The notes beneath the pieces are model-generated. The model was not told where the DNA came from, searched no databases, and was given only the letters and a program-made list of their open reading frames with translations. 64,000 nt of DNA from Pezizomycotina sp. ARF18 (taxonomy: Eukaryota > Ascomycota). The position numbers and the translations under genes were made by a program. Below, in pieces: positions 10,975 to 63,633 of the stretch. Every line of letters begins with the position of its first letter. Position 1 is the first letter of the stretch. The stretch spans positions 1 through 64,000 of the forward strand of contig AZLU01000218.1 in the NCBI GenBank assembly GCA_002224055.1. The letters are read 5' to 3'.

Positions 10975-13333
10975 TTATTGGCTGGTGCGGGTTGTATTTT
11001 GACTTGATTCCAAGATGATGCTTGTTTCCAGGCCCAGGCGGCTCCCGCGGATTCCTGTGATCCCAGGATAATGGCAGTACAGTGATTTCATTTCCTTCGA
11101 GTAATTACCCTCTTCGAACGACTCGTGTCCGATGCCCTCAGGCATATCCACGGCCTCCCTCGAGCAGCGACCGAGGCGCCCACCGCATACCTTCCTGTGG
11201 CATACGCTCGCACTCGTGGAAAATAATCGCCTTACCGAAACCTTCAACCTCTCCGAAAAACCACTCCATGCGGCGGTCGGCGAGCTCGTCTCCCGTTCCA
11301 GGAATATCAAGCAGCTTCTTGACATCCATGTGCATTAAGGTTGCCAAACAGAGAGTTTCGTCAGCCCGCCGCGTGGTATGCCTGTGGTGCGCCGAAGGCA
11401 TGCGAAACTTGAAAGTCTGGTACGCCGGCCAGTTACCCGGCTTGTCGTGAGTGCTGAGGACTCTTCCGATCCCGGAATCATCGAAATTATCTGTGACCGA
11501 ATTGACAACCATGTTCGGAAAGTTCAACGAATATCCCCGCTTCGTCTTTGACTCGCCGAAACTATAGGCCCTATCATATACCCTCCAAAACGGCAGCGCT
11601 TGTCCTGGAACTGAATGTATGGCACACGGGTAAGGCAGCCTTCTTGGAGGGTCCAGAGGCGCTTGTTCCATTCGCACAAGAATGTCCGCAGTGCGATCTC
11701 CGTGATAGGCGCGTCGCTCGGCAATTCGCATAGCCAGGAGTCAAGCACGAGAACCTTGTTTGCGTCGTGGTAAATGGAGCTCATCTGGAGTATTGTCTTC
11801 TTTCTCCACTGCACATTGTACTCCTGCACGGAATACAAAGCGTATCCATCCAGAACGCCCCATAGTGAGGAACCTTCTCCAGCGAGTTTTCAGGCGGATT
11901 TTCCCCGCCTGGTTCTGAAGCCGATTCTGGGCCGATTTTGAACTAGATGACTTTTTTTGTGGTTCAGGTTCGTCGTACAAGCAGTTCACTCGGGACTGGA
12001 TGTCGCGAAGTACGCAAACTGGTAGCGCATTGTCATCCGGATTACCCATACCATCCGACCATCTGTGGCGAATTAGCTTCTCGTCTCTTTCCTTTTAACC
12101 TTGCTGGCCCTCACAAAAGTTGATACGGCAAACTTACACATTGAGAAAGGGCAACATAATTGTCCTTTTTAGGTATCCAGGGCACAGACCTCAATACGGC
12201 CGCCCCCATCTTTCTCCACCAATCTCACTCCGGGTAGCTTCCCCTCTAATAACAGACACAACCTCCTCGACATGCACGCCGATAAACTGGCATTTTTGAT
12301 CGCATCCCGCTTCGTGCTTGAACAGGTAGCTCTCGACGTAGAGATCACCCGCCTTGCACCTACGCTCTGTGCATGCGTCATGGCTCAGCCGCGAACGGAC
12401 CGTGTTCTTCTGGGCGTCCATCGCAACGCCGGTGTAGTAAATGGCCTCCAAGTCTATATGATCCGCAAGCCTTCCAATATCCATCCGGCAGAAGCCTTTC
12501 CCGACCATCATATCGGTGAGGCACTTCGGCGTCTTCCATCTGTTCCTGTTGACTGGCCGGTAAGCTTCAATTACGAACGCGCTCAAAAGGTGATCGCGCA
12601 GCGTATAACCTAGGCATTCCATCGATGCGATAATCTCCCATGGAACAGGGAACAGCGCAGAAGTACTCGGATCAAACTGAACTTGCCACCGACAAGGTGC
12701 TTTTCGATAGTAGTGTGCAGGTACGTGAGAATCCGCTCGACGCGCTGAATCCGGGCTGGTTGATTGATGCTCGTTGTCGCCTTCAACCCTGCGTACTCCG
12801 CAGCATCGTGCGGGTACTTCTCCGTCTTCTTCAGCGACTTGATTTTCTTTCTATTTTTCAATTTGCTTCTTGTCCTCATCAACCGACAGCTTCTCGAGCT
12901 GGTGTTCCAACTCGCGAATGTCTTTCTCCTTATTCTCCTTCAATTCTTTCTTCAAATCCCTTATTTCAGCCTTGCGCTTGTCCTTCAGTGTCGTTCCCAT
13001 CGGCGGATATAACGACGCAACCGCCGTAGTGATTATACCGTTTTCTTTGTCTACGAATTTTCTCCAGGTCGACTTCGACGTCACCCACGCGGAAGAACTC
13101 GACGAGGACGCCAAAGTACAACCAGGACTGGAGAAACTCCCGGATCTCCTGAGGCGAAAGCGTTCCGTACTTCTCATCCGCGACATCGATCCCGGCGTCT
13201 TGGTCCCATCCCTTCATGGCGGTATATCTGCTTGGATATTCGAAGAACCCATCACCGGAATACGGGGGATCGACGGAGCATATGAATGGACTTTCATATG
13301 TTCTGTTCCCTCTGGTACATAGATATGCTCCAT
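10975..13333 (-). CDS. HET-domain (heterokaryon incompatibility) protein, frame-interrupted
   Basis: HET proteins act in fungal non-self recognition and can trigger cell death when unlike strains fuse. The start at 13333 gives MEHIYVPEGTEHMKVHSYAP. A region near 13.2-13.0 kb reads EIREFLQSWLYFGVLVEFFR. A KHEAGCDQKCQFIGV stretch lies near 12.3 kb. The HET core follows: GMGNPDDNALPVC near 12.03 kb, QMSSIYHDANKVLVLDS near 11.78 kb and KRLWTLQEG near 11.67 kb. These match the conserved order of the family (GLGNP-NALP, then A-KVLVLD, then RLWTLQE). The full span would be about 750 residues, normal for large HET proteins. Frame changes several times (near 13.27, 13.05, 12.85, 12.62, 12.2, 12.0 and 11.2 kb), so it is either a pseudogene or hit by sequence errors. 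The C-terminal end is approximate. Confidence 0.8.
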
Positions 13334-13950
13334 AGCGACTTCAATGGGTGTGACTGGAGAGATTTACGTGGAGAGAAAAATAAGAGGTGCTACTATATCT
13401 CTAGAACTCGAGTTCTCCTTGGTTTCTCAGTTCAAGCCGTTCAATTTTTGTCCTGTTATATAGTTCACTGAGGAGAGGCGCGGAAGCCCCTCCTCACGAA
13501 AACTCCCACACCTCGAAATATTTAGATTGGGGCTCTAGCTCTGCAGAATCTAGAGCGCTGAGGGTGCGGGGAATCTCAGCATTTCTATCAGCCGCGTTGA
13601 GCTCCACCAACAGCCTGCGGGACACACACTTAACTAAGGGTACGCCTACATTCTCAAATAAGATGATCCTGCTCTTCGTGGCTACCATTAACTGCATATT
13701 AACATTACAATACTATGTAAGATTAACCAGTATTCTTTCTTCCGTGTGAAAGATCAGTAATCCTGTTGTTGTTCTTGACTCCAACTCGGAGCCTCACCCT
13801 CGGGCTGTTTTCTTAAGCCCCTTCTCGCCAAGTCTCTGGACGATACTCTGTATTATCACCGGTGAACCTTTCCGTTAACACTAATCTCCCATTTTAACTA
13901 TTACATGTAAACATATACAGAAATGCAACAAAGAACAACGAAAACGACAA
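13334..13950. other. Intergenic, no gene seen
   Basis: This stretch lies between the HET start and the lactate dehydrogenase stop and should hold the HET promoter. Short open frames occur but none resembles a protein family. Confidence 0.5.
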
Positions 13951-14905
13951 CTAAATCCTCCGCGCCCTCCTCTTCCACGTCCTCCTCCTTCGCCGGCGGT
14001 TTATCGGCTCCAAACCCTGAATAACCTTCGAAATCGTCTGCACCGCCTCCTGATTACTTCTCTTTCTCCAGCTCGTCCAACCTAATACACAGCAACCTCT
14101 CAACCCCTTTCGCCCCAATATCGCCGGGTGGCTAATATAACACTGCACTCCTCATTAAAACACGTCACCGAAACGTTCTCCTCGAATCATGCACCACCGC
14201 CTGCGCGAGCGCCGCGACCGCCGCCCCAATCCCGTAATACGTCGACCCCTTCCTCGCGATGATCGCGTAGGCTTTATATGCCGTCTGCCTCGCCAAAAAA
14301 TTCCTATCGACGCCTTTCATCCGGAAAGTCGAGTAAGGGGGCACCGCCGACTTCGGCGCCGGACCAACAGACGAATTGTCCGTCGCCATGTTCTCCCAGG
14401 ACGTGACAGTGGATGGATCCCTCGTGTACGCCGACGATCTTGGATAATTCCGACCGCAAAGCGTGCGGAGTCCAAGTACGTACCCGCGCCGAATACCTGC
14501 GCCGCGGTAATCCGGACAGCTGCTGCGCCAGATGACATAGCGCCTCGACGGGGTTCGCCACAATCAAAATAATCGCGTTGGGGTTGAGCGGTTGCATGCC
14601 GGACATAATGGAGGTCATGATTTCCCTGTTCCTCACCAACAAGTTTCTACGTGTTTCGCCGGCTTTTTGTTTGACGCCGGCGGTGAGACGATCATGTCGG
14701 CTTGACCGGCATCCTTTATAGATCCCGTTGCGACGGAGGTGTCAGTGTCCAGCGTGCAGTCTTGTAGATCATAGCTTCGCCTTCGGCGCGGAGGTATCGA
14801 CGTCGTGGAGGAGGATGGCGATGGGAGACGGTGGAGGACGAGGGCGTAGGCGATCGTGGAGCCCACGGATCCGGCGCCGATGATCGCGAGCTTGAAGCGG
14901 GGCAT
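13951..14905 (-). CDS. L-lactate dehydrogenase (lactate/malate dehydrogenase family), frame-interrupted
   Basis: The enzyme interconverts pyruvate and L-lactate with NAD(H) in the cytosol. The start at 14905 gives MPRFKLAIIGAGSVGSTIAY, with the Rossmann GxGxxG-type motif GAGSVGS. It is followed by YDLQDCT, VRNREIMTSI (family NR-I region), NAIILIVANPVEAL (the conserved NP step before substrate binding) and LGEHGDGQF with the catalytic histidine. Near the end GVERLLCIRLDELEKEK matches the family's C-terminal helix. The span of about 318 codons fits fungal LDH length. At least four or five one-base frame changes split it, near 14.82, 14.76, 14.69, 14.48 and 14.12 kb. Malate dehydrogenase is less likely, because fungal LDHs carry this GEHGD context. 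Confidence 0.85.
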
Positions 14906-15669
14906 GATGAAGGTAGCCTTGTTGGGACTATGAGATAGTGAGATCGAATTGAGGGTTGTAGCTAAAGGATGTGATGTGAATAGAATTTGACGTCGGTTGC
15001 TTGAACCTCTTTGTCGGTATTAGCAGGGAAGTGGGGTAACCTTGAGCTATTAAGTAGCTAGTAGCTAGTGGGGAAGAAAACTTTTCCAGCCAGGTCTTTC
15101 ATCTGATAGTTGAAGAACCTGCAGCCAAGCCCAAGTCCAAAGGGCTGGATTCAGGTCGTCTCTGCGTCACAGTCACCTGCCTTTCAGAGGTAGCGAGAGT
15201 TGGGTGAGGGGGTTTTTCGAATCATGCCATAAATAATTCTCTACTCGCGGAAGAGACCGAGACATCCCCGCCACGCAGTCACTACCACCATCAACCGAGC
15301 CCGAGAGTGAAATCATAGGGTCGTTAATATTTCATGGTAGCTCAATCATAGTGCCATTAATATCTCCACGGTAGCTCAGCGAAATCAATATCTAGAAGAG
15401 AAACATTGGTTGACGGTCAAGTGTTATCAAGTATTATGACGTATTCATTATTACCATTACTATTCGGTGGAGTAACTACTGAGCTATCGGAAATGACCAC
15501 AAGAATTAGAAACTGATAAAACTAATAAGATGGAAGAAGAAACTTTTGGTATCTAAAATTCGAAGCCAGTGTTCTCGTCTCCTATGAAAACAGATATGTC
15601 AGCAATAGATCAAGAAGGATCACTCCGCCTTTAATGTGAGGGTCGGTCAACTTACTCTCCGGCCACCAC
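14906..15669. other. Intergenic, likely promoter of the lactate dehydrogenase
   Basis: No gene seen. It contains a near-repeat, with TCATGGTAGCTCA and TCCACGGTAGCTCA about 45 bases apart near 15.33-15.38 kb, each next to an 'ATTAATATxTC' word. No TATA box stands out. Confidence 0.4.
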
Positions 15670-16171
15670 TTCATCTCCGGCCCGCGATGTAATCCACCAC
15701 GGCGGCACTCCAGCTCTTTCTTCTTTCCGCCGCAGGCTTCTCAGTATCCGCGTGAGATTCCTTCTCGGCACCCTCTTTCTCAACAGCCTTATGCGTCGAG
15801 TCATGAGTATGAGGATGAGGGTGCGGGTGCGCCTTCGACGTCGGCGTGTGATGTGCTTGCGCCTTGTGAGAGGTTGCTCCATGGGTAGGATGCGAATGAG
15901 CGTGCTCATGATGATCTTCTATATGCGCATGTTCATGATGATCCGGGTTCGCAATATAAGAAGGGAACCGCCTCTCGTCAGAGTGGTTCTTCGCGTGCGT
16001 GCGTGGTGAGAGTGAGGGTGCTGCTCGTGCTTCTGGTGAGGCTGAGGGGAAACCTCGATGAAGGATGCGACGTGGAGGTCCCGGTCGTGGGCGGTTGCAG
16101 CGGCTTTGGAGGTCTCTTCGGACTCCCAGGCTTTGGTTGCTGATTCTTGGGTGTTTGATGCTGATGACATG
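15670..16171 (-). CDS. Histidine-rich small protein, unknown function
   Basis: The start at 16171 gives MSSASNTQESATKAWESEET, followed by a short helical part ending DLHVASFIEVSPQPHQKHEQ. The rest is strikingly rich in His, with runs such as HEHAH, HHEHAHSHPTHG and HPHPHPHTHDSTH, and an acidic/basic tail with KSWSAAVVDYIAG before the stop at 15670. One frame change near 15.99 kb separates the halves; the His-rich half continues in the next frame. About 165 residues. His-rich tracts often bind Zn, Cu or Ni, but I do not recognise a named family and infer no function. A short fungal intron cannot be excluded but is not needed. Confidence 0.6.
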
Positions 16172-16596
16172 GTCTGTTTATGATTTGTTTGTTTGTGAAG
16201 TTGCTTTGATGTTTGATGGATGTGTATGGATAAGAGATACTTACGAGAGGCTGATGAAGACGAATTAAATACTCTACTTTGTTTTCGCCCTCGGTTGGAT
16301 AGCTTCAAAAAGTTGTCAGATGTTCTTGTTTTCATGATTTGGGTGTTGTTCCCTCTTGATGTTTCTTGATGGTGTGATTTTGTGGTATGATAAATTTATT
16401 CCCTCCATGTAAGTAAGGGTTCCAGATCGATCCTTTTTTCTGGGTTTGAATCGGTGGGGGTGTTCACTGCGAGATTTTCCGAGGCAGAACCGAAAAAACC
16501 ACACCACGCGTCGGTGGCTGCCACCGACCGATAAAGAGACCCTGGAGACCCTGAGTTAGAACAAGAACAAGGCGCCTAGAACCCCAGAGCTAGCAC

Positions 16597-16627
<31 letters not shown>
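16597..16627. repeat. T13/A18 homopolymer palindrome
   Basis: Thirteen T followed directly by eighteen A, able to form a perfect AT hairpin. It lies between the His-rich gene and the hydrolase gene. Confidence 0.9.
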
Positions 16628-16734
16628 GTCTGCAGTCTGCATGTGCAATCTGCTAGCTGCTTTCACGACGTGACATGATAGAAATGTATCATTTACATTT
16701 TGTATCACTCAATTCTTCTCCCCCGCCTCCCTCC

Positions 16735-17521
16735 TCAAATCTCCGCCAGCTCCTCCGCCGACTAACCATCGGCGTATGAGAACTATCAATCTCAGCGACC
16801 TTCTCATCCTATGATCGTCCGTCGCCTCGCCAGATTCAACATGCCGCGAAACCTCTCAACGCGTGCGAATTCGTGCATAGAATGCACGTCGTCGGGATCT
16901 TTCTCCACGCAGCAGACGTCTACTCCAAAACGGCCCTAAACTCTGCGGCTTGAGGTCCGACGCTAGCACTTCGGCCACGTCCGGTTCGATGTCGTTGTAG
17001 AATGCTTGTTTGGCGCCTTCGTGGTCGCAGGTTACGATTCCTTTCTACACGATACAAATAGTTCATTCTACAAATCAGCCTTCCGAGGCGTCAGGTGGTG
17101 GTAGTGGCTTTTCCTTACCGCTCCATCAACGATTAAAAACCGGTCCATATCCGGCAACACCCCCTTCGGAGTATACTGAAAGCCCTACGGCACCAAAAAC
17201 ACGTTCAAATAATCAGCTTCACGACCGCGCTTTTCTCCCCGCTTGCTTCCTACTCTCAACGTCCAGGCCGTCGAGTGCCGTCCTAACGCATGCCCGCGTA
17301 CGAATGCGCAAGAACAATAGCATCCTCGCCTTTCTCCAGAAGCTGCAAGACCGTCCTCCGAATAAGGTAATATCCGGCTCGAAAGTCTGCAACGGAGGAT
17401 CACCGCCGCTGGACGGTAGGTGCGGCGTAACGATCTCGTAGCCGTGCTGCGTGAGGAGGAACGAATTTGCCCATACCTTTGGCGTGTGCCAGGCACCACG
17501 TAGGAGAACGAACGCGGGCAT
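16735..17521 (-). CDS. Alpha/beta hydrolase (esterase-like), frame-interrupted
   Basis: The start at 17521 gives MPAFVLLRGAWHTPKVW, the typical opening of small esterase-like alpha/beta hydrolases (AB hydrolase_6, methyl/salicylate-esterase-like fungal proteins). HGYEIVTPHLPSSGG follows. Near 17.31 kb a shifted frame reads AIVLAHSYAGM, where the Ser in HSYAG matches the nucleophile elbow. Near 16.78 kb SHTPMVSR then EELAEI gives the usual 'H-PMLS-P-ELA' end that carries the catalytic His. The stop is at 16735. Catalytic Ser and His are visible; the Asp is not certain. At least three frame changes and possibly one intron (about 17.15-17.04 kb) lie between. Confidence 0.7.
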
Positions 17522-17965
17522 TGTTAGTTTTGCGATCCAGGACATGAATTGAAGACTTAAGTCTCCTTGGCCATTTCGAGAGTGGATAAATGTTTTATCG
17601 CCAGCTTGCGCTTTTATAATATGATCGCATTAGAAAGCTCAACGCGACCTTTCGCAGGACATCCGGCCGAAAATCCGCGTTGATTCCTCCCATTGACGCG
17701 TCCTCTGCGGAAGTGTCGTATTACGATCTCGGTGTGCGCAGTTATAATACAATTTCAAAGCTCTCTGAGTCAGTTAAGAATTAGATCCACGGCTATCAAC
17801 AAAGTCCGATCGATTATTCTTCGCATTCGTGCTCGAGCTCCCCGTCATCGAGGATGCGAACTTGCCGATGAAAGCAGTTTGAACTTTTGAAAGATCACCT
17901 CTCCCTCAAAAATTCGCCTCGCCCATTGATCGCTCTTCATGACTACTTAGTATACTTATACCTCT

Positions 17966-18181
17966 TTAGTCCATAATTCGTCCATAATAAAGGCGTGCGG
18001 GTTCCTTGTTCTTCAACCGCAGATCGCGATCAAACAAGCTAGCTTTTAGCTTCTTTCCCGAGCTGTTAGGATCAATGTATTCCGGAAGATTCCCCGGCCT
18101 TCCGGCGCCATGAACCTCCAGAGGATCATATACCTGATTTAACCGCGAATCCAGAAATCGATATACCTTTTTATCCACCAC
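17966..18181 (-). CDS. Short open frame (71 codons), unknown
   Basis: An intact frame of 71 residues beginning MVDKKVYRFLDSRLNQVYDP and containing GAGRPGNLPEYIDP. The composition looks protein-like, but I recognise no family. It could be the end of a decayed gene. It lies head-to-head with the aminopeptidase gene 346 bases away. Confidence 0.3.
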   Translation of the reverse strand: MVDKKVYRFLDSRLNQVYDPLEVHGAGRPGNLPEYIDPNSSGKKLKASLFDRDLRLKNKEPARLYYGRIMD

Positions 18182-18477
18182 GGTTGCCGTCCTTCTTTCC
18201 TAAAGCAATTCTATGTGAATATCAAGCCTGAAAGAAGCATGTCCCTAGTACCGGTATACCACTAGGTCGTTGCAACTTTCCTTTCCGGCGTTCCTCTTCT
18301 TGGCAAGCTTATTAAAACAGCCCGCGTCCCGCTGCAAAAAAAAACCCCGCAGTCTCAGCTCGAAATTCCACGGCGGAAAACTTTTTCCGGGTGAAAAACA
18401 AACAAACCAAACACTCAACCCCACCATTCCGTTCCCTATTTCAACAAACAACATCCTCCCACGAGCTACTATCACCA

Positions 18478-18520
18478 CTTCAACAGCATCAACAGCATCA
18501 ACATCATCATCATCAACAAC
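18478..18520 (+). repeat. CAACAGCAT/CATCAA microsatellite in the aminopeptidase 5' leader
   Basis: Repeated CAACAGCATCAACA-CATCAT words lie directly before the start codon. This unstructured CA-rich leader is common in well-translated fungal genes. Confidence 0.6.
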
Positions 18521-18527
18521 CGCAATC

Positions 18528-20574
18528 ATGCACGTCAAAGATCCCAACACGCTGTCCAATTACTACGCCTTCGCTCCGGAGCACGTAGATGTCAGTTTGA
18601 CCATCGACTTCGACAAGAAAGTATGCTCCGGCGACGTTATCACGACGTTCAAGTGCGTCAAGGAGGACGAACATGAGATCCACCTCGACACGAGCGGGTA
18701 GACGTCAAAGACGTGCACATCGTCGAGGGCGGCAGTCTCAAGATTGGTCACTCGGCGCTGAGGCACCAAAGGGAATACGGCAGGCAGCTCAAGATTAGCC
18801 TGACCCACAGCGTCCGGAAGGAGGCCAAGATCGTCGTCAAGGTAGTTCAAGCTCAAAAACGCAAACATAACCCAAAGTAGATAGAAGTGTATTCTCTAGA
18901 GGCTAACATTAAGAGCAGACCAACTTCGCCACGACACACTCCAGCGCCGCCCTCCAATGGCTCTCCCCGGAGCAGACGACGAACGGCAAGCACCCCTACG
19001 TTTTCTCCCAGTGCGAACCGACGTACTGCCGCACCATCTTCCCCTGCATGGACACCCCTGCCGTCAAGTCGACCTTCAGCTTCAGCATCCGCTCCCCTCT
19101 GCCAGTGCTCTGCTCCGGTCTGCAAACCTCCATCGGGCCCCACGACGCCGCAACGAATACGCGCCTTTACAAGTACGAACAAAAGGTCCCATCCCGGCTT
19201 ACCTGTTCGCGCTGGCCTCGGGAGATATCAAGGATGCCAAGATCGGTCCCCGAAGCTCCGTGTGGGTGCCGCTGAGGAGCTGGAAAAGTTCAAGAAGGAG
19301 ATGGACGGTGAGGTCGAGAAGTTCATCAAGGCCGCGGAGAAGATCACGGAGTCCGAGTATGCGTGGGGCCAGTACAACGTCTTGTAAGTTATATTCTCTC
19401 CATTTCATCAGTGTGGTTGAGAACAGTAGCTAATGGTCTTTTTTTTGATTTGACAGATCCTCCCCGCGAGTTTCCCGTTCGGCGGCATGGAGAACCCCGT
19501 CTTCACCTACGCCACGCCTTCGATCATCAGCGGCGACAAGCAGAACATCGACGTTATCGCGCACGAGCTCGCGCACAGCTGGAGTGTCAGTCATTCTCGT
19601 ACCCAACCCTCCTCCCTCTCTAATCGCCTACTAACTCCACATCGTCTTACAGGGCAACCTCGTCACCAACGCCACCTTCCAGGACTTCTGGCTCAACGAA
19701 GGCTGGACCGTCTACCTCGAACGGCGCATCGGCGCCGCCATCCACGGCGAAAAATTCTTCGACTTCTCCTCCGTCATCGGCTGGAAATCCCTCGAGGAAT
19801 CCGTTAACGCGTACGGGAAAGACCACGAGTTCACAAAGCTAGTCCCGGACCTAACAGACCAAGACCCAACGACTCCTTCTCCACCGTCCCTACGAAAAGG
19901 GCTTCACTTTCCTCCGGAAGCTAGATAACCTCCTGGGCGTAACCGCTGGGATAAGTTCATCCCGCACTACTTCAAAACGTTCAAAGGGAAATCATTAACG
20001 TCGAACGACTTTATCACCGAGCTTATAACCTTTTTCAGGAGCGACGCCGAAGCGTATGAAATACTAACAAAAAATGTAAACTGGGACGCCGAATTCTACA
20101 CCCCCGGCCTCCCCGAAAAGCCCAAATTCGACACGAGCATGGCAGACGTCTGCTACGACCTCGCGAAAGAATGGAAAACCTCCTCTCATCCTCTCAAACC
20201 TTCAAACCCTCCACGAACGACGTCCACGACTGGCTCGCGAACCAGAAAGTAGTCTTTTTAGACGAACTACAACAGATCGACGGGTTTAAGCCTGAACACG
20301 TCGATTTGCTGGCGCAGACGTATAAATTTGCGGAGAGCGGGAATATGGAGATTGTTTATAGGTTTTATATTCTTGCGTTGAAGGCGAAGCATACGAAGTA
20401 TTATAAGACTGCGGCAGAGTGGTGCAGCATATCGGAAGGATGAAGTACGTTAGGCCGGTTTATAAGCAGCTTAATCATTGTGATAGGGAGTTGGCGGTGG
20501 GCACGTTTAAGAAGAGGAAGAGCTGGTACCATCCTGTTTGCCAGACTATGGTAGCGAAGGACTTAGGACTTTGA
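18528..20574 (+). CDS. Leukotriene A4 hydrolase / M1 zinc aminopeptidase, frame-interrupted
   Basis: A cytosolic/nuclear M1-family metallo-aminopeptidase, which in fungi has weak or no epoxide hydrolase activity. The start at 18528 gives [15 protein letters not shown]. Then come [20 protein letters not shown] (family QWL-PEQT-GK-PY-F-QC), [14 protein letters not shown] with the GxMEN substrate motif near 19.48 kb, the zinc site HELAHSWS near 19.56 kb, and the third ligand in [11 protein letters not shown] near 19.70 kb. [10 protein letters not shown] near 20.44 kb matches the C-terminal helical domain. Introns are visible at about 18841-18896, 19384-19456 and 19584-19652. At least seven one-base losses break the frame (near 18.70, 19.19, 19.27, 19.87, 19.90, 19.94, 20.18 and 20.43 kb), all without loss of conserved residues. 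Span and order fit the usual length of about 610 residues. Confidence 0.9.
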
Positions 20575-21566: not shown

Positions 21567-21576
21567 CAGAAATTAC

Positions 21577-21768: not shown

Positions 21769-21805
<37 letters not shown>

Positions 21806-25973: not shown

Positions 25974-26768
25974 ATGTCGCAATCCGAAGCTCCATTCTCT
26001 TTGTGCGCCTATCCCACCAAGGTATCTAAGGTAAATCTCGGAATTGCAATCTCTACTAAACCACGCGATCCAGCAGTTCAGGCTAACAACATATTAGGAA
26101 CAATGCGATTTCTTCTACTGCGCCAGCAAGATGGTCACCATCCACAACGGCCTCCTCCGTCCACTAAACGCGATATACCAGCAAGCACCCTACATCAAAC
26201 CTGCAGACGTTCCTTCCTTCCTCCTCTACTGCGAAGCATGGTCGCACTCGCTGCACCACCACCACGGGATCGAAGAAACTATCTTCTTCCCAGATGTCGA
26301 GCGCGTCACCGGCGTCAAGGGCATCATGGACGGTAACATCCAGCAGCATCAGCTCTTTGAATCCGGCCTGGAGAGGTACGACGAGTACATCAAATCCCAG
26401 CAAAAGTCGCCTTCCGCGTTCGACGGCAAGGATCTTCGCAGGGTGATAGACTCCTTCGGTAACATTCTGCGTCAGCACCTCCAAGACGAGATCCCACGCT
26501 GCTCGCGCTTAAGCAGTATCAGGACAAACTAGATATTGCGCAGATGTTTCGAGACATCGACGCGAAGATTATGAAGGAGAGTTCGCTAGCTGACGCGGCG
26601 TACGTCGCTACGGCAGGTGCGGCAGAGCTTCTCGAAGGAGCCCCAGCTCCAATACGCGTCTTGATCGGTCTGATCGGAACGTGGAAGAGGTGGACCGGCT
26701 TCTTCAAGTTTGCACCGTGTACGGGCTTCGGTGTGCCGATCGAGCTGTACGCCAAACCTATTGCTTGA
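25974..26768 (+). CDS. Hemerythrin-like HHE cation-binding domain protein
   Basis: A fungal HHE-domain protein, an alpha-helical bundle that binds a di-iron centre through His and acidic residues. Exon 1 (25974-26021) encodes MSQSEAPFSLCAYPTK. A 76-nt GT-AG intron (26022-26097) follows. Exon 2 opens EQCDFFYCASKMVTIHNGLL and carries HN, SLHHHHGIEETIFFPDVE, and later ILRQHLQDEIP, which supply the H...HxxxE...H pattern of the family. After a one-base loss near 26.495 kb the protein continues in the next frame as LLALKQYQDKLDIAQMF and ends with PCTGFGVPIELYAKPIA at 26768. About 240 residues, normal for this fungal group. Possible roles are iron/oxygen sensing or stress resistance; this is inferred from the family only. 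Confidence 0.88.
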
Positions 26769-27646: not shown

Positions 27647-28120
27647 CAGTTAGTTGACATAATTGTTGGACACTTACCTAAAACGGCAATTTCTTTAAGT
27701 TCCATAATATCTTAAATTATCGATAACTCACTTAATTATTATCCGATTTTTATAAAATTAAAAATTTATGTTCATTATATATATAATAATAACATACTAA
27801 AATTTTATAAAATTTTATCTAATATTAAATCTTATATTATTTTTTAAAATTTTTATATATAAAAAATCTATATTATTTTAAACTTATATTATAACGTTCA
27901 TATTTAATAAAAATTTATAAAATTAAATATATTATAGATTATATATTAATCTAATATATATTAAATTTAAAAATCTATATATATTATAACATATTCAAGT
28001 TTTAGCTAATTTTATTCAGTCGTTGTTGCGTTATTATTGATTGAAAAAGTGCAAAATCATACTTTTGTATGAGAAAACTGCCGTTTTAGAAAGTGTCCCA
28101 ACAATTATGTCAACTGACTG
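27647..28120. mobile_element. Tc1/mariner-type MITE, short copy (474 bp)
   Basis: The element is flanked by TA on both sides (27645-27646 and 28121-28122). Its left end reads CAGTTAGTTGACATAATTGT and its right end is the inverted complement of CAGTCAGTTGACATAATTGT. The inverted repeats run on for about 43 bases to the word AAAACGGCA. The interior is AT-rich and encodes nothing. TA target duplications and CAGT ends fit the Tc1/mariner superfamily; no transposase is present, so it is non-autonomous. A longer copy lies at 53887-54567 in the opposite orientation. Confidence 0.9.
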
Positions 28121-34383: not shown

Positions 34384-35198
34384 TCAACGCCCGCTCCCGA
34401 TCCTCTTCAGCTCCGCCACAGTCTCCTCCTCGTCTTCGATCTCCTGGCGCAGCTCGTCCCGCCTCTTCTGCATCCTCTCGAGCTCGCGACTCATCTCCGC
34501 CAGCTTCTCCTTCTTGTTGCGGACGGACGATTCGAGGTGGTTGATGGCGCCTATCTCTCGAGTCAGCTTCACCTCCTCCAGTTGATCAACGAACCCAACA
34601 ATGAGAGCAGGGAAAGAATGGAACAAGGAATGAACTTACGAGTGCGGCGCTCCCACTGCCCGATCATCTCCGTCGTATCACCCTGCATATTGCTGCGGCG
34701 TCGGCGCATCCACGAGCGAGCGATCATGCTGGACGGCCGCGGTAACGTTGCCGACCGGCGAAGGGGTATCTGGCATCCTGGTGGCGGGTTCAAGTTCTCC
34801 TTCGGGTTGACCGGGGTGTAATCTATCGAGGTGTCCAGAGTTACCATCAAACATCCTATCGGGGAGGGAAAAGGTTGCAATAGAAAAAGAAGACTGTTCT
34901 GATGGTGCTCACCCTCATCGGAAGAATCATCCTCAGCGAAGAAGTTGATGCCATGGCTAATCTTCGTCAGCCTGGGGTCTTCTTGGTAGTAGTACTCGTC
35001 GCCGGCGGTTTCGCGGTCGATGCTGGCGGGAAGACGTCGGCGAGGGAAGGGAAGGGGACGCTGTCGAGCGCGTCTTGCAGGGAGGTTCGGTTTCCGTTTC
35101 ATGTGGAGGATGGGGGATTGGTGGTTGCTGGTCTGTTCGGCGAGGCCGCCGCGCTTGGAGCGGTTACGCTTGACGGATTTGACGGGGGTGCGCTGCAT
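34384..35198 (-). CDS. Basic, acidic-patch and coiled-coil protein, probably nuclear, unknown
   Basis: The start at 35198 gives MQRTPVKSVKRNRSKRGGLA, a basic nuclear-localisation-like N-terminus, then DPRLTKISHGINFFAEDDSS followed by DEG. A 57-nt GTGAGC...ATAG intron (about 34.86-34.91 kb) and a second intron beginning GTAAGTTC near 34.64 kb are visible. The last exon is a strong coiled coil: EVKLTREIGAINHLESSV, then EKLAEMSRELERMQKRRDEL and DEEETVAELKRI, ending near 34384. The layout (basic head, DYTPVNP linker, coiled-coil tail) resembles chromosome- or kinetochore-associated proteins, but I cannot name the family. A frame ambiguity in the middle exon suggests one base may be missing. Confidence 0.55.
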
Positions 35199-35370
35199 GG
35201 TGACGCGACTGGGGTTTGTGGATTCTGTTTTAATTTTCGTGAACAGTTGAAGGTTGAAGATTTTTTCTTTGTTTGTTTGGTTAATTGATTTTTTACTAGT
35301 AGTAGTGGATTCTTTATTTTAGCAGAAGAGGAAGTAAAGACCACTCACTGGCAAAGCAATATTTACCAGG

Positions 35371-35371: not shown

Positions 35372-35406
<35 letters not shown>
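35372..35406. repeat. Poly(T) run of 35
   Basis: Uninterrupted T35 between the coiled-coil gene and the next intergenic stretch. It could be the tail of an old minus-strand retroposed copy, but no target-site duplication or body was recognised. Confidence 0.9.
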
Positions 35407-36098: not shown

Positions 36099-36470
36099 TC
36101 AATCCATTAGCATTACGCCCTTATCCTCTACCGAAAAAGAGCTCGTAAACATCTTCAACAGCTCAAAACATTTAATTCAAAGAGGGAAGAGAATATTAGT
36201 CTATCTTACCTTCAGCGGCGTTATCATGCTTCTCCTCGTGCCACTTATCCTTGACGGCGTCCTTGCCAGCATCGGCGCGGTCGCCAATGGTGGCTCCGGG
36301 AACGTTACCCTTGAAGGTTTCCTTGTTGGCTTCCTTCGAGGCCTGAGCCTCGTTCTTCTTCATGGACTCCGAGACGCCCTGGGCGGCGTTCTGGATGGAG
36401 TGGCCGACTTTCTGGAAGATGTTGTCGTCGGGCTTGTCAGCCTTGGGAGGTCGGTGTTGTGTTGCGACAT
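36099..36470 (-). CDS. Grg1/LEA-like small hydrophilic stress protein
   Basis: The start at 36470 gives MSQHNTDLP. One base later in phase the protein reads KADKPDDNIFQKVGHSIQNA, then ASKEANKETFKGNVPGATIG and DRADAGKDAVKDKWHEEKHD. The 'SKEANK...GATIGDRA-AGKDAV-DK-EEKHD' pattern is that of fungal glucose-repressible/late-embryogenesis-like proteins (Grg1/ccg-1 type), abundant in starved or stressed cells. An 82-nt intron (36128-36209; GTAAGA...GGTAG) leads to a short exon ending GVMLMD at 36099. One base appears lost in the CCC run near 36.45 kb. About 100 residues, in the normal range. Confidence 0.7.
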
Positions 36471-38417: not shown

Positions 38418-39946
38418 ATGATCGATATCCTCTCCTTGCCCCGCGACATCGTCTTCGAAATATTCGACCACACCCCGACGCCCACCCTCCTCCTCCTCCG
38501 CCTCGCCTCCTCATCCCTCAACTCAACCGTAACCTCCTACCTAACCTCCAACAAGCTGACCTTCCACACCTCCGAATCCTCCCCCTCGAAAACTGCCAGC
38601 GGATGCTAGCCTACGGCACATCCGCCAACAAACCGTGGAAATCCAGCTTCGGCACTCTCGTCCTATACCAGGAAACCCTCCGGGTACATCGCACATGTTC
38701 CTCTCGCACTGCCTGAACGCCGAGCGGCTCGCGTTAGCATACCTCGCCGCCTTAATACCGTTCGTCGAAGACATCGGACCGCATTTACACTCCCTGAAGG
38801 TAATCTGCTCGGACGATTACACCTCAAACGACGCGAAGCTAATACAAGACCGCTTCTGCCGCGTAGTCTCCCTCCTTTTGCTACACTGCGACGCCTCCCT
38901 CCGCAACGTTACGAGCGTGTACATGCAGGTATGCATGGGACGGCTTTTGGGGTACTTCATGTCCTGCGTCTCCAATCTTACCAACCTCACCGCTCTCCTC
39001 CAATAATGCGACGAGGCGAAAAGTGGTTACAAGAATCCGACGTGCCGCTGTACATGACAGGAAAGCAATCTTCATACGCCATCGAAGATTGGGAACAACT
39101 ATACAACTGGAAACACCGCGACCCTTTACCGACGGAAATCCACCAGGAGAAACGACGCCAGTTGGTGCGGATGGTACGATAAAGGCTCCCCCGCTCGTGT
39201 ACCGTTACCGCTATTACAGCGTATAAAAGACTTCGAGATAGTAAACGACTACCCTCCGATCCGACGTTATACCGCTTCATCGACTTCGCGGAGAGTATGA
39301 AAAACCTGAAGAAATTCGCGTGGAACGCAGGATACAAAGACTCCGGCTTCGTCCGGGATTGCCAGCCCGTCCATCTCCCAAACCTCCAAGAGGTAAAAAT
39401 GACGCGCGCTCCCGTCTGCGGCGACGCCTTCCTCACAACCGTCTTAAAAAAACTGGGAGGATACGCTCACAAGTCTACACATCGACCACTGCACCATCCA
39501 CACCGAAACCGAGTCGGAGCGTAACGGTCGAGCTGCCTACGGCGGTATCGGTAAGTTTCTAGACAATCTCCTGACCACGCTACCGAAGCTAGTGAACCTA
39601 AAAATCGAGTGTCTGGGTATACCCGCTGGGACTTCACGGAGAAGGCGTTGCGGACCGCGAGTTCGCATAATCTTTCGCTCGACGACTGGAACGAGCCGTG
39701 GGGTTACCAGTACTCTATGGCTGCGTATACGGTCGGACCCATGGGAGGGACGGACGGGGACGGGGTATAAGAGGCCGGTGCTGTCGCCGTTCCAAGGCGA
39801 TCTGTGGGCGCTGAAGAGGGTGAGGAATGGGTATAGACAGCGGAGGTTGGAGAGGGGCTCGGGGTGGATGACTGGTTGAGGTTCCTGTGCGAGGAGAGGT
39901 GGGAGAATACGCTGTTTAGACGGTGGGGTTTGCGGAGATGCTGTGA
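38418..39946 (+). CDS. F-box protein, frame-interrupted
   Basis: F-box proteins recruit substrates to SCF ubiquitin ligases through Skp1. The start at 38418 gives MIDILSLPRDIVFEIFDHTP, then LLLLRLASSSLNSTVTSYL: the conserved 'L-LP-DI---I' and 'L--L-L-S--L' helices of the F-box at residues about 4-45. The following 450 codons read as leucine-rich text such as HCLNAERLALAYLAAL, FVEDIGPHLHSLKVICS and SLLLLHCDASLRNVTS, typical of the substrate-binding part in fungal F-box proteins. Frame changes near 38.57, 38.69, 39.0, 39.46 and 39.6 kb split it. The stop is uncertain; a frame ending GFAEML at 39946 is the best candidate. Confidence 0.7.
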
Positions 39947-41129: not shown

Positions 41130-41799
41130 TTACCTGTTTTGCGAACCAGCCTGCTTCTGCAAATCGCCTCTACCCCCTCTGCCTCGTCTTCCCCTCATCG
41201 TGCAAATCCTGATACCTCTCCTGCTCAATTCTATCCCCGTCAACCCAGCAACGGCACTCCCGAACGCACCCTGGACCCTATCTCCGACGCCCCTTCCAAG
41301 ATCACTCATCTGTCCCTGCGCTTCTTGCCCTTTTCCCTCGGCGTTCTGACGCTGTCCTTCCTGCTTTAGCGATTCGCTACCGACGAGGCCGCCGACGGCT
41401 TCCTTGGCAGCGCCGACGGTTTGGTTCCACGAGCCGGCGGAGCGGTTGGGGTCGTCCTTTGTTATGGCGCCGGCGCGGAGGCGGTGAACGGCCTGCTTTT
41501 AGGGTTGCGTGGGAGAGGTCGTGCTCGCGCTGGGCTTGGTCCTGGCGGCTTGGCCTTGTGCCTGCATTTGAGATAGGGATGTTAGTCTTCTTGAGGTATC
41601 AGAAGGTGACGGAGACGGGAAGGAGAGGGATGAGTGGAGGGGAGGAGGAGAGGAGATGGGGAGTTTGTTGTTGTGGAGAGAGAGCTAACCTGATCAGCGG
41701 TGCTACCCGTGATGTTCCGATGGCGCTCTGGACGGCGCCGACGGCGGAGTCGACGTACGACTGGAAGGTGGAGGAGCTCTGCTTGTTATCGTCGGACAT
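41130..41799 (-). CDS. CsbD-like stress protein (annotated in fungi as mismatched-base/cruciform DNA recognition protein)
   Basis: The start at 41799 gives MSDDNKQSSSTFQSYVDSAV, then GAVQSAIG and ITGSTADQ, the standard opening of this abundant fungal hydrophilic protein family. An intron (GTTAGC near 41.69 kb to CAG near 41.57 kb) follows. The second exon has QREHDLSHATLKAG, KDDPNRSAGSWNQTVGAAKE, AVGGLVGSESLKQEG and GQEAQGQMSDLGRGVGDRVQ, then a tail QKQAGSQNR ending at 41130. About 165 residues, the normal family length. At least five one-base losses occur, several visibly in G runs (near 41.29 and 41.19 kb). The family has a CsbD-like fold and is tied to stress; a DNA-structure-binding role is claimed for a homologue only. 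Confidence 0.8.
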
Positions 41800-44368: not shown

Positions 44369-45222
44369 TCAAGAACTAGGCGTAGAAGCAGGGATGCTCG
44401 GGTCGTCGGCGGTAACTGCGGTGCCCGCGGGAAGAACATTCTGACGGAAATACCTGGCGATCAACGTTTCCTGCGGGGGAATAGAGGCAGACGAGGTACC
44501 AGTCGTAGTTGTTACATCTCGGCTGAGTTGCGCTGCCAATAGCTACTGCGCATCCGAGATACTGCGTGCTCTTCCAAACGAGCTGAGTGAAAGTTCCCGC
44601 TCGTTGTTGCCATCCAGGGTTGTTCCAGTTGTAGTACTTGACAGACGCGTACCAACCCTCAGCGCTAGAAACAGCGGAGCTCGGGGTCAGCTGGTCGCCG
44701 CCGAACCAGGGAGTACCGTAACCACCGTTGTACGTAGGGGTAGATAGGGTTGTTATTGGTGCCGTCGGGGTAATACAAGCGTTCGCGACAGTTTGAGCCT
44801 TCTGAGCGAGGAAATCGCTCCACTGGAGATCTGGAGCGCCGTGGACCCTCCTGTGATTGTTGTGAACCGCCAATACTTGCGGTTGCCAATCTGTAGTCGG
44901 CGGCGGAGGTGTAGGCTGCTGAGGCTTGGTAGAAGGGTCAACGCAAACACCGAGCTGGCAAACGAGGTTGCCTATATACCACCAATACTTAGTAAATTTT
45001 CACATAACATGTATATATATACATGTATCAGAACAACAATCAACCAGGAGCAGGATTCAAACCGTTGCAAGCCGCCCAGTCGCCAGGGCAGCTAGAACCG
45101 GCCCTCCGGCCGCTACAACTTCGCGGACGGCTGCCTTGAAGCTCATTTTTTGCACCTGAGGTGAGGCGTGGATGCCGGCGGCCGCGAGAGCCGAAAAAAC
45201 GATCGTGTGGATAAGCATATTG
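44369..45222 (-). CDS. Secreted CAP/PR-1-like (SCP) protein
   Basis: CAP proteins are secreted sterol- or lipid-binding proteins, and in plant pathogens can act as virulence factors. The start at 45222 gives a signal peptide MLIHTIVFSALAAAGIHA. A Cys-containing linker follows (CPGDWAACNGLNPAPG), then an intron of about 85 nt (GTTGAT...TATAG), NLVCQLGVCVDPS and a Pro/Thr-rich stretch. The CAP domain begins VLAVHNNHRRVHGAPDLQWS and contains GTFTQLVWKSTQYLGCAVA and YLVCLYSPAGN. The signature box normally reads GHFTQ; here the His is Thr. After a one-base loss near 44.45 kb the tail reads RYFRQNVLPAGTAVTADDPS and stops at 44369. Another loss lies near 45.10 kb. Confidence 0.85.
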
Positions 45223-51711: not shown

Positions 51712-53886
51712 TGTTTCTGTTTAGTCTGTCTTTTTCTGACCTTTTTGATAAGCCTTAGTTGGATATGAAAGAGTGTTGTGGCCTAAGGGGAACGTCGAAC
51801 TGCAAAGATGTAAATCATGACCGGGGAAGGCATGGAATATATATAATTAATAGCTCGTAGGGATTACGACGCATTGCCCATCACTTTGTACTATCTCGGC
51901 CGGCAGACGAATTTCAAATTAGGGTTTGTATCTTATTTTTCCGGGAATACATCTCCGGATTACTATCGTGAGATCTGTCTACATGGAAAGCGTTGCACTA
52001 AAGGGGGTACGGAAAACGCCACCACGTAAGCGAAAAACGATATTTTATATTGGAAATTATGAGGAAATATAGTAAATTTCGCTCTCTATTGGCCTTTTTC
52101 TTATATTTTCGATGGTCTAACTATACTGAAATTGGATTTTAGGCAGATCACATTCTCTTCGCGCAGTAATCAAAAAAGATCACGATCTTCCCAAGTTCGC
52201 TAACTTTTTTTCATGGTAAATATTAACTAAATTGCCAAGGTATTTCTCTCTTTAGGGTGAACTGATGATATTTAGACGCGTGCGTGCCATATATAGTTTG
52301 GTCGCGTTGACGATCACGGATCGACAGTGATTGGATCTGCATCCAAGCCTTTTTTTAACAGACTAGTCGAGCGACTGCAGGAACAACACCGAAAAAAAGG
52401 GATGAAAATACCAGTGACGAACAAAAACGGCCAGTACGAACCTATCAAGGCTCTTTCTGAGAATCTTTGTAGGATTCAATCGAGTTAGAAATAGATATTA
52501 GAAGGGTTTAAGGGGAACAACGCAATCGATATCTTGCTGACTGTCTTGACGAGGAAAACAGTCCCGAATCTGCTTATCGATCTGATACGAGACCCATGGT
52601 TCAATATCGCGTCTCTGGTTCTGAGGGTTAAATCTATCTAGCGATTTGAATCCTGCCCGATATTGACTTTCGTCGTTGAATGTCCATCACGGATGCTGTC
52701 ATCGAAGGCTTGAAGGCGCCCGGGTGTGGTGTTCTTCCAACATGCGGGTGCTCAACGGTAATCAAGCCACCAAATTTGCTGCCGGCGTTGAGGGAGTTTC
52801 TCTCTGTGCAAGTTGTTTATTTCACACGGATAATTTTTAGGCATCCCACATTTTAATCCCTCCCGTCTTCCCCCGGAGCGCCACTAACGTAAAAATGTGC
52901 TCGTATGAGGGAAAAAGGGGGCTTCCTTGGACTTCGAGTGTAATATTATTATCAATTTTCCGTTTGATAAACTGACTAAACAAAGAGTCCTCGATCACTG
53001 ATATTGAGGGCGGCCTAGCGGCGAGTGATACGTCCAGAGAAACAAACATTCGCTTTCTTATTGCCTAGCTTGGCTAGCTTGAAGCGCTGAGATGACAGAT
53101 ATATAAAAGTGTTAGTCTTGAGATCTCATTCGTCGAAGCTAACGTCAGGCTGTCAAGGCCTCCTACCGCCACCAAATATAGTTCGCTTCGTATATTGCGC
53201 ATTAATTTCGCTAAAAAAACCTCGGGCCTCCCCAGAGGATTTGAGCCCTACAGGCGGTTATTGGTAGGCTAGGGCTTTGGGGACCAGTAAACAAACATGC
53301 TGATCTCCCCAACTTTCGTTCAATGTTTCGATGTAAGTGATCGTTGGACTTGGTCCATTCGGAAGAGAGCTTGCAGTAATGTGATTACTGGCATTCCGTA
53401 GAATTAGATCCTTCGAAGTCCCGGTTAATCGTCTTTCTAAATTTCGCTGTTTGATCTCGTAAGATCAAAGGGCAGTGTCAAAGACGAGTACGATCAGGAC
53501 TATGTAAGTATTGAAATCAGGTTCGGTGAGTAGCATGACCAGCGACCTTGCGACCGCGTATGAATCAGAGAACAATATCAACAACCCAACGAGTTTAAGA
53601 CACGTCGAGAGCCTCAGTTTCTATTTTCCTTTTCGTAGTTTACATTTTGTAGAAAGCGACAGAGTTATAGATCTACATTAAGAGATTCACAGTAATATTC
53701 TAGATAAGTATGATTCAATACCGGTGCTCCTCTCCTTGAGACCGGAGATCGAGTCAGGTAGGTAGAACCCGCCATACAACTAGAATCTTGTAAAACGCAA
53801 ATCAACGTGATTCTCAAAATGGAATGTTCTCTTCCCGTGAGTATACAAATGAATAACGTCTCCGGTATCACACGACTCGGTTCTTA
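51712..53886. other. Intergenic, no gene seen
   Basis: Holds the promoter of the rhodopsin-domain gene. No recognisable coding frame; the right end is the TA target site of the long MITE copy. Confidence 0.45.
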
Positions 53887-54567
53887 CAGTCAGTTGACAT
53901 AATTGTTGGGACACTTTCCTAAAACGGCAGTCTTCCCATACAAAAGTATGATTTTTGCACTTTTTCAATCAATAATAACGCAACAACGACTAGATAAAAT
54001 TAGCTAAAACTTAAATATGTTATAATATATATTGTAAACTAATACATATTAAAATTTTAAAAAAATCCGTTAAAAGTTTATGACGTAATAATATTTAATA
54101 TTTTATATATTTTTAAAAACACGTACTTCACGCACTTTTTATATGTAAAATACGCGAAATTGCACAAAAATCGTGCGATTTTTAAACTAGTTAAAATTTA
54201 AAATAATATATATAACTTAATTTATGACGAATCTTTTTAAAATTTAAATATGTATTAGATTAATATTAATCTATAATATATTTTAATTTTATAAGTTTTT
54301 ATTAAATATTGACATTATAATATAAGTTTAAAAGTAATAATATAAATTTTTTTATATATAAAAATTTTAAAAAATAATATAAAATTTAATATTTGATAAA
54401 ATTTTATAAATTTTAGTATGTTATTATTATATATATAATAAACGTAAATTTCCAATTTTATAAAAATCGGATAATAATTGAGTGAGTTATCGATGATTTA
54501 AGATATTGTAGAACTTGAAGAAATTGCCGTTTTAGGTAAGTGTCCCAACAATTATGTCAACTGACTG
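53887..54567. mobile_element. Tc1/mariner-type MITE, long copy (681 bp)
   Basis: Flanked by TA (53885-53886 and 54568-54569). Left end CAGTCAGTTGACATAATTGT; the right end is its inverted complement. The inverted repeats extend to AAAACGGCA as in the copy at 27647-28120. The internal landmark (GTGCAAAATCATACTTTTGT in one copy, its complement in the other) lies at opposite ends of the two copies, so they are inverted relative to each other. This copy has about 200 extra internal bases, including a GC-richer patch near 54.12-54.18 kb. No coding capacity. Confidence 0.92.
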
Positions 54568-54583
54568 TATCAGAGATAACTTT

Positions 54584-59205: not shown

Positions 59206-60132
59206 CGTGCGCCTTGAAGGCCCCTTTGCGATATTTGATTTTTCTGCGATTTTTCAGTTCTTTGTTCAGGGTCAAGTCCAGATTTGGGACCCTTCACGCA
59301 TTTTTTCCTTATAGTTTTCTCTAATTTTTGTGTTATATACTACATATACATATGCACACACACATATAATTTTCGTCCACCATACTCGGAGTTGAGTATC
59401 ATGATGATAGCATAGCATACATAATATATATAACATCTCATATCAGCATATGAAAAAAGTATGCGAAAATTATTCCGAATCTAGGAAACGAATTTGACCG
59501 ATTGTTCAGCATATATAGATATCAAACGTATTTTTTGCGAATTCTGGTTTCGAGTCCAGTGCCAGTGATCCTCTCATCTATATTAACGTCCCCCTTTCTT
59601 CTGGGTCTATATGCTCGATACCAGTACATCAAAAGCCATCGCATTTTCAATCTTCCGGTCGAGCTGAGCAGACGGATGATTAGGTTCAGTTGTGCGTCCC
59701 TTTTTCACTAATCTGCAAAAAACGCAGTGCGTAAGTGGCGTGGAGAACGTGGTCCCCGCTTCATGTTCTAAGGTTCCTCGCTCGACGCAATTTTGAACTG
59801 CACCTCGAAACGGCAAATGAGGGGCACGCAAAGACGCTAGTAGGTCGAAAATAGTGCTAATAAGCAGTAGTAAGAGTAAAATATATTGAAAAAATTCTCA
59901 TCCGGCATTCCAATATAGGTTTGGTAAACTCAAGTACTTCAGTAAGGTTTGAATAAGTGGGGATCAAAAGTTCAAACCGAAGTTTTGCCCCTGACTGAAG
60001 ATGCCGTTGCCGGACAGTAGGCTTTCAAACCCTACGCCTCGTTAGGAAAGAGAGGGAAAAAAAAAAAAAAAAAAAAAAAACGAGCCGAAAAACTAGCTAC
60101 TCACGCTACTAGTAGATCAAAGACTAGCCGGT
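59206..60132. other. Intergenic between convergent rhodopsin-domain genes
   Basis: No gene seen. AT-rich with ATATAC repeats near 59.33-59.45 kb and an A24 run at about 60057-60080. Confidence 0.5.
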
Positions 60133-61468: not shown

Positions 61469-62737
61469 TCCTACGTTTTCTTCTATAATGAATGCGATAA
61501 CGGTCGATGAGGGACTCGGACGAGCTGGAGAGAGTTTGCCTTGTCTTCCTGATACTACTCGTCTAGTGAATCGTACTAGCTCAAACAAAACCACACATGA
61601 GAACGTAGGTACAAGGATGCTAGAAGTCAATTGCAAACGTTCATGAACCCCAACGGGAAAGGGATAATCTTATAATAACAAAGAAAGACCTCTCGACAAA
61701 ACCCTGGATGACAGGATCCGCTATTACCCCACGCCACGCGAAGGCCCCACTGGACAAACCGCGAGACCCGTATTCGCTCGAAAAAATGAAAAAGCCTCTC
61801 TGATCAATGGATCAGGTACTAACCTCTTGGCTTGAACGCACACTAATACCACTTGGTGGAGATTACCTTTTAGCAAGCGAATACGAGATGCAACAGTCCG
61901 TATTTCCTTTAGTATATCAACGCCCGCCGGGGGGAGAGGGGGAAGGAGAAGAGGCGCGCGTTCGAAATAAAAATTATCTAGCGAAGGAGATGAACTGCAA
62001 AGCGTCCGTACATGGGACGCGAAATTACGCATCACGGCGGGGACTACATCTAGGGACAACTGCCATGCTGGGGATGGCAATCGTGGCCCGCCTGTGGTTC
62101 GGAAACAAAGTTCCTGACACCGGAAAAGGTTGATATTATGAGAAAGAATTGATGAACCTATGAGGAAATTTAGTTTGACGATGGACCATATATTAACCTG
62201 ATGAACAAAGGACCTATAAATTTCTCGTTTTGAAAGACTGCTATATGCCGCTAATGTACCTTGTTTAAAAGAAGAAAAAAGCTCGTTAACAGTAGAGAAA
62301 AGCAGAAAGAGATACAAAGTAAGAAAAGAAAAACCTGGAAGAAGAAAAGCAGATCGAAACGAAAGTGCGAAACACATTAAAGAGAAAAAAAAAGAAAAAA
62401 AATAGCAGTACCTATGTCTCCTTGCTCTTGGTAGAAATTTCCGGCGATATAAAACGAAAACTCCATAAGTAATCGAAAGAAATAGAAAAGAAACGCCGGT
62501 CATATACGCCAATATATCAAAAGTCAATAAAACCCCATCATGCCGTCCGTTATATCCCTCCTAAAAGAAGAAAAACCTCTCCTCCCTCTTCAATGCCCTT
62601 CTCCTCTCCTTTTCCTCTTATTCTCCCCCTTCCATAATTGTTATTTATTCACTGAAGCTGCTTCCACGCCTTATAAAACCCTCGGCGCCAGCCTCTTCAC
62701 CTCTCCTCCTGCATAACCTTAACCTTCCCGTCGCTCC
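61469..62737. other. Intergenic with one long but doubtful open frame
   Basis: A 267-codon minus-strand frame at 61724-62527 (MTFDILAYMTGVSFLFLSIT) is rich in Phe/Leu because the plus strand has A-rich runs. It has no recognisable domain and is probably 3'-UTR or chance. Nothing else seen. Confidence 0.3.
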
Positions 62738-63633
62738 TCATCGAACTTGCAGCACCTCATAACTCCACCTCTCCTTCCCCATTCCCTTTACCACCGCCGT
62801 TCTATTACTGTTAACGGCAACACTGTTCAAAATAGTCTCGATGATCTCCGGTCCGTCCACGTCGATCTTACGCTTCTTCGTCGGCGTCTCTTTTTCGTCC
62901 CCGTTGGTAGTGATGTTATTGTTGGATGTCTGAGAAGCAGGATTCGAAATCGCGCGCTTCCTAGTACCGGTAGTAGTAATTGCGGAGACGAGTTTTTCGG
63001 AGCTCTGGGAGGGTTGGCGGGAGTGGTAACCCCTCCTCAAACCTCCCCCGCTCGGAGCAGTTCCTCTACCGATGCGGGAAGATTGCAACTGCTGCAGCAA
63101 CCTCGCCGAGCCCGTCTGCGGTGGTCGAGGTTGTTACGGCGGGTGGCGCTGGGAGCTGCTCTGGCTCTGACTGTTACCGTGAAATCTGGCTGCGTTATCG
63201 TTCGAGAACGCGCCGCGGGAGGAGTCGTCGGTGCCGTTGTCGGTCGAGAGTTCGGGGATGTTGTGCAGTGATGGTACGGCGCCTTCGTAATCGTCTTCGT
63301 CGCCGGCCGTAGTGATCCTCCTCCTCCCTCAGCGTCACGTCCATGTTACTCTGGTGTTGTCGGTAGCCGGAAGAATAACGCTGGTCTCCCTCGTCGTGGT
63401 AGTCTGAACTTGCAACACCAATGGCTGCGGCGAGGTAGGCGCGGCGACATCAGTCTTTGTTCCACCGTGGTAGCGGCGGCGATGTTGCTGCTGTTCCTGG
63501 AAGTCGCGGGGAGGGAGGCGAGCCAGTTGGAGACGTAGATGTGGTCGCGGTTGGAAGGGAGCTGAAGCTCTCCGCGCTGGGGAGCGGGGCGGCGTGGGGG
63601 GATGCGGACGGTTCGGGGGGGTGGGTCTGCCAT
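62738..63633 (-). CDS. Basic, probably nuclear protein of unknown function, frame-interrupted
   Basis: The start at 63633 gives MADPPPRTVRIPPRRPAPQR, followed by DHIYVSNWLASLPATSRN. The middle shifts frame more than once (near 63.44, 63.3 and 63.05 kb) through Arg/Thr/Gly-rich text. The last part (62738-63100) reads SEKLVSAITTTGTRKRAISN, TPTKKRKIDVDGPEIIETIL and KGMGKERWSYEVLQVR. KKRKID is a good nuclear localisation signal. No catalytic domain seen. The low-complexity basic composition fits a transcription-related or chromatin protein, but the family is not recognised. Confidence 0.5.

Follow-up and report, generated by a model that had tools for sequence, protein, structure and literature searches.

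The window analysed here is a stretch of 64,000 bases, namely bases 1-64,000 of contig AZLU01000218.1 (C218) in the assembly of the fungus Pezizomycotina sp. ARF18, which comprises 46.36 Mb in 408 contigs. It carries, among the genes and domains collected in Table 1, a gene for an LTA4H-like M1 aminopeptidase whose reading frame is interrupted repeatedly by the loss of one or two bases. A preliminary description made from the letters alone had noted one-base losses in nearly every gene of the window, and had read them as the errors of an unpolished long-read assembly rather than as gene decay. Because the closest relatives of the aminopeptidase, at 71-74% identity over the part searched, are those of Orbilia oligospora, Arthrobotrys entomopaga and Orbilia brochopaga, and because the matches of a mitochondrial HSP70 gene elsewhere in the assembly are led by a Tardiphaga metagenome-assembled genome labelled bacterial (70%), with Dactylella and Arthrobotrys next at 86-87% identity, sequence similarity would place the host within the Orbiliaceae or close to them, among the nematode-trapping fungi and their kin.

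Aligned with an intact Arthrobotrys relative (P0002) by means of a purpose-written aligner that is aware of both frameshifts and introns, the aminopeptidase gene contains nine one-base losses and one two-base loss in 1,936 coding nucleotides (5.2 per kb), with no frameshifting gains, no in-frame stops and three introns of 67-78 nucleotides. The break counts were identical when two further intact relatives (P0001 and P0003) were used as references; the alignments also show five to six missing residues and one to three in-frame insertions, which are excluded from the count. In control alignments the aligner placed no break in any of seven intact pairs, with identities down to approximately 54%, and introduced one false intron. 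GGMEN (19481) and HELAH (19562) are found in the same frame, while NEGW (19695) is read in the next, and we take these to be the motifs of the zinc site. The earlier statement that this gene keeps its motifs despite seven or more breaks is thus borne out with ten, and the stops and lost catalytic residues that were named as hallmarks of a natural pseudogene are absent from LTA4H, the gene to which this observation is confined. The alternative that had been considered was that the window belongs to an accessory chromosome in decay and that its genes are real pseudogenes. The many frame breaks in the window would fit such a chromosome, as would the strongly AT-rich 10 kb at one end, which resemble the products of repeat-induced point mutation (RIP), but an aminopeptidase without stops and with its catalytic motifs kept argues against it. 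Nor did we see an intact twin of LTA4H that would make the gene dispensable, the sole Leuk-A4-hydro_C locus found genome-wide being the one in the window.

Essential genes on other contigs bear most directly on this alternative. Chains of matches to hidden Markov models change frame at seven of the eight loci of the CCT/TCP-1 chaperonin family (Pfam Cpn60_TCP1), with at most 35 nucleotides of unexplained DNA and no intron-sized gap, and at five of seven HSP70 loci; the other two HSP70 loci comprise one with a single unresolved gap and one whose only match could not be chained. With the aligner, we counted seven breaks in 2,002 nucleotides of the mitochondrial HSP70 gene on C49, 13 in 1,706 on C70 (7.6 per kb), four in 1,157 on C208 and 12 in 1,564 on C3, the last three genes being aligned to mitochondrial HSP70 at 55%, 37% and 53% identity, respectively. 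Together these four HSP70 genes, each on a different contig outside the window, hold 36 breaks in 6,429 coding nucleotides, or 5.6 per kb, the rate in LTA4H being 5.2 per kb (p = 1.0). Leaving out the poorly alignable gene on C208 gives 32 breaks in 5,272 nucleotides, or 6.1 per kb (p = 0.73 against LTA4H), and the mitochondrial HSP70 gene taken alone gives p = 0.47. In LTA4H and the four HSP70 genes together, 45 of the 46 breaks are losses and one is a gain; the RNA polymerase genes and the M1 gene on C58 stand outside these counts. The length of open frames was also considered as a sign of intactness and was rejected, since chance alone keeps frames open in HSP70 genes that are broken. A fungus with broken main chaperones would presumably not live, and the breaks should therefore lie in the letters only. 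A comparison of indel density with core genes elsewhere had been proposed as a check, and its outcome points to error. With essential genes elsewhere broken at a matching rate, rather than damage confined to the window, we regard the accessory chromosome as very improbable.

On contig C257 (56,537 bases) the error process of the assembly is caught directly. One stretch of this contig, at 14,000-19,233, occurs again from 51,322 to the final base, and over 5,234 columns the two copies differ by no substitution at all, while the second copy has 16 losses (14 of one base and two of two bases) and no gains. These losses become denser toward the end of the contig, with 11 of the 16 falling within the last 1.7 kb. 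The first copy encodes an intact protein of 865 amino acids, which is matched by relatives over its full length, whereas the second is detected as five pieces. Losses that come without any substitution are unlike the products of decay, which is a further point against pseudogenes on an accessory chromosome. The copies also offer a ready truth set for the type of error in this assembly, for which no reads are needed.

Bases are missing from untranslated genes as well. We found 15 matches to 5S rRNA, of which four (L050-L053) were dropped as divergent or truncated, and seven of the 11 copies used are short of one to four bases, with 13 losses against a single gain over 1,308 nucleotides. These genes bear on another possibility, which is that the breaks are real and that programmed frameshifting or RNA editing across the genome allows them to be read through. 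Such a system might be suspected from the way in which frames resume past each break and from the involvement of essential genes. However, losses in 5S rRNA, which is not translated, disfavour readings in which the ribosome compensates, and the same applies to the C257 repeat, where two copies of one sequence differ in that one is intact and the other broken. We know of no such frameshifting or editing system in filamentous ascomycetes, and we consider this the least probable of the explanations weighed here.

The mitochondrial contig, C50, has 231,088 bases with a GC (guanine plus cytosine) content of 25-32% in the stretches read, and its cox1 matches are spread over approximately 70 kb. All 99 of the LAGLIDADG_1 matches listed lie on it. 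In 80 kb sampled under genetic code 4, the open frames listed include 18 of at least 250 amino acids, the longest having 672, compared with a single frame of that size (278 amino acids) under the standard code in the 54 kb of the window beyond 10 kb; two of the eight 10-kb stretches of C50 have no long open frame or only one. When strong LAGLIDADG matches are compared with their neighbours (59 of the 99 listed entered this count), 12 of 18 pairs prove to be in a common frame, against the one third or so that a Poisson model predicts for the nuclear rate (p = 0.004). C50 therefore looks cleaner than the nuclear DNA, as a consensus error limited by read depth would predict.

We consider it about 97% probable that the losses of single bases reflect errors in the consensus of an assembly that was not polished enough, most likely one built from long reads at modest depth, and this confidence is owed to the core genes and to the C257 copies. 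The reading of the preliminary description is thus upheld by losses in HSP70, CCT/TCP-1 and 5S rRNA genes as well as by the repeated stretch. The losses would arise during consensus calling and not through mutation, at a cost to the measured nuclear genes of some 3-8 bases per kb, frequently, though not in every case, in short runs of the same base and with next to no gains. DNA expected to be high-copy, meaning the mitochondrial contig and presumably most of C257, would be cleaner since each base there is decided by many reads. Runs of at least three identical bases hold 20% of the bases in the C257 repeat but 11 of its 14 one-base losses (p = 4e-6); 10 of the 13 losses in the 5S genes lie within runs of three or more; and in LTA4H eight of the ten losses stand beside such runs (null expectation 35%), where the positions given by the aligner are accurate only within a few bases.

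Several observations weigh against this reading and need to be set beside it. Unlike the losses in LTA4H, none of the seven in the mitochondrial HSP70 gene stands beside a run of at least three (null expectation 26%), and long runs in the window are intact: 35 T at 35372-35406 and 27 A at both 63898-63924 and 63964-63990. Two HSP70 paralogues have one in-frame stop each, and the identity of 37% at which the C208 gene was aligned is below the control range of the aligner. The break rate is uneven, in that an M1 peptidase on C33 has no break in approximately 900 nucleotides, albeit at only 26% identity; its domain is read through in a single frame, and a model of codon usage calls three switches there. 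The same model makes no coding call at two of the eight core loci. The 5S copies represent at least two substitution types, and some of their differences may be natural variants. On C50, six of the 18 LAGLIDADG pairs change frame, through error or through real decay. Because the losses in mitochondrial HSP70 show no preference for runs, long runs survive and the rate varies, the sequencing technology is named only tentatively; unpolished long reads fit best, in line with the preliminary description and with the literature (PMC12007338), and we infer both this technology and the role of read depth. A narrow literature search for long-read Orbilia genomes found none, which is not proof of their absence in print.

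The other genes of the window give a more mixed picture (Table 1). Judged by codon usage alone, the 11.2 kb of coding-like sequence in the window switch frame directly 38 times, or 3.4 times per kb, against 0.74 false calls per kb in stretches known to be in frame (leave-one-out control). One-base losses in nearly every gene, as first described, are not established gene by gene.

Table 1. Genes, domains and coding-like stretches in the window
Feature	Position	Strand	Evidence and frame
Coding-like stretch	12260..13221	-	Codon model alone: three direct switches; no family match
LDH (lactate/malate dehydrogenase)	14057..14729	-	Ldh_1_N 61-138, Ldh_1_C 9-52, then Ldh_1_C 64-155 in a different frame
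LTA4H-like M1 aminopeptidase	18414..20571	+	Homology; 10 breaks by one- or two-base losses
Hemerythrin HHE domain	26131..26490	+	Match in a single frame; codon-model switch directly after
Coding-like stretch	34399..35205	-	Codon model alone: five direct switches
Grg1-like domain	36211..36399	-	Positions 3-63 of 67, single frame, no break seen
F-box domain	38427..38537	+	Match in a single frame; two codon-model switches downstream
CsbD-like domain	41301..41441	-	Match in a single frame; one codon-model switch adjoining
CAP domain	44481..44873	-	Positions 1-117 of 117, single frame, no break seen
Coding-like stretch	62837..63610	-	Codon model alone: four direct switches

At least nine genes were originally listed as split. 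Besides LTA4H, this is confirmed for LDH, where the frame changes inside the C-terminal domain, within about 20 nucleotides, according to the Pfam matches. The CAP, HHE, CsbD and F-box domains, on the other hand, are each contained in one frame; these genes, and the gene with the Grg1 domain, which may not belong to the original nine, may have breaks outside the matched domains. Since Pfam detects unbroken stretches more readily, whole domains will be over-represented among its matches. A HET domain gave no Pfam match in the approximately 48 of 108 kb of strand beyond 10 kb that were searched in three frames, or in the remainder, which was covered through open reading frames of at least 120 amino acids (74 of 75 scanned). 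A fungal rhodopsin domain and an alpha/beta hydrolase (Abhydrolase_6) are weak matches, each in one of the 74 frames (E = 0.0013 and 0.0073, respectively) and with its locus not placed. Several losses had been located in short G or C runs; the codon model places a switch at 18,687, in agreement with the one near 18.70 kb, while those near 41.29 and 36.45 kb fall outside the matched domains.

The low-GC stretch at the start of the window (1-10000, GC approximately 19-25%) ends near 10 kb. Within the first 8 kb CpA and TpG are nearly missing, with (CA+TG)/(AC+GT) at 0.00-0.08, and TpA/ApT is approximately 1.5-1.6. By the look of it, this end of the window has undergone extreme RIP, which is real decay of a different kind from the one-base losses. 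With RIP so clearly at work at 1-8 kb, a minority of the window breaks could be real amid errors throughout, for example near the AT-rich end, and at any single site a true loss and an error are here indistinguishable. The rate in LTA4H, the only window gene so measured, is however not above that of the core genes and leaves no surplus to explain, so that we think such a mixture unlikely. The more specific version, in which a few real breaks lie beside the RIP-mutated end and assembly faults mask recent decay in part of the contig, seems a little less likely again.

Two further features of the window were seen. A short element occurs at 27668-28056 and, in opposite orientation and approximately 26 kb away, at 53885-54569; the copies are 91-96% complementary, and the second is flanked by 45-base inverted repeats (98%). 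This is possibly a small inverted-repeat transposon. Scans of the window for tRNA genes and with Rfam gave no matches.

Contig C257 is of interest in its own right. Its sequence repeats itself after approximately 37.3 kb, as expected of a circular or concatemeric element, and its GC content is 33.5% in one stretch (L060). The 865-amino-acid protein is a divergent RPB2-like RNA polymerase subunit, with a match to Rpb2 domain 6 and one to domain 7 under the cut-off; Rpb1_5 had no match on the contig. C257 also encodes a family B DNA polymerase of 721 amino acids, and two open reading frames beside the polymerases have F-box matches at or slightly under the cut-off. Among the 44 protein relatives listed, 28 align at 43-53% identity over 95-100% of the query, the longest contig carrying one being 39.5 kb, and a shorter relative is found in Hirsutella minnesotensis. 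Pattern scans of IMG/VR with either polymerase found no relative, and plasmids gave only weak rpoB-like matches; a capsid search had no match anywhere, including in its controls, and is hence uninformative. A narrow literature search found no paper on an element of this kind, which is not proof of absence in print. Taken together, C257 looks like an undescribed circular virus-like or plasmid-like fungal element of approximately 37 kb with its own RPB2-like subunit.

For users of the assembly, counts of pseudogenes, gene losses or species-specific frameshifts derived from it would be unreliable. If some 3-6 losses per kb applied across all 46 Mb, an extrapolation from few genes, approximately 140,000-280,000 bases would be missing and most genes would be broken.

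Two published cases allow these observations to be set in context. The mitogenomes of Orbiliaceae are described in PMC7174627 as large and intron-rich, at 146-280 kb, and C50 resembles them both in its length of 231 kb, which is within that range, and in its dozens of homing endonuclease matches. PMC12007338 relates, with credit to Watson and Warr, that short indels, mostly false deletions, in runs of two to eight identical bases mimic frameshifted pseudogenes, and gives errors in fewer than 0.05% of bases for a bacterial assembly, substitutions and insertions included. The ARF18 assembly is similar to the case described there in that mostly false deletions, linked to same-base runs at several but not all of the loci compared, make intact genes seem frameshifted. 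It differs from that bacterial assembly in degree, with nuclear genes that lose approximately 0.3-0.8% of their bases, about ten times more, and with gains that are nearly absent.

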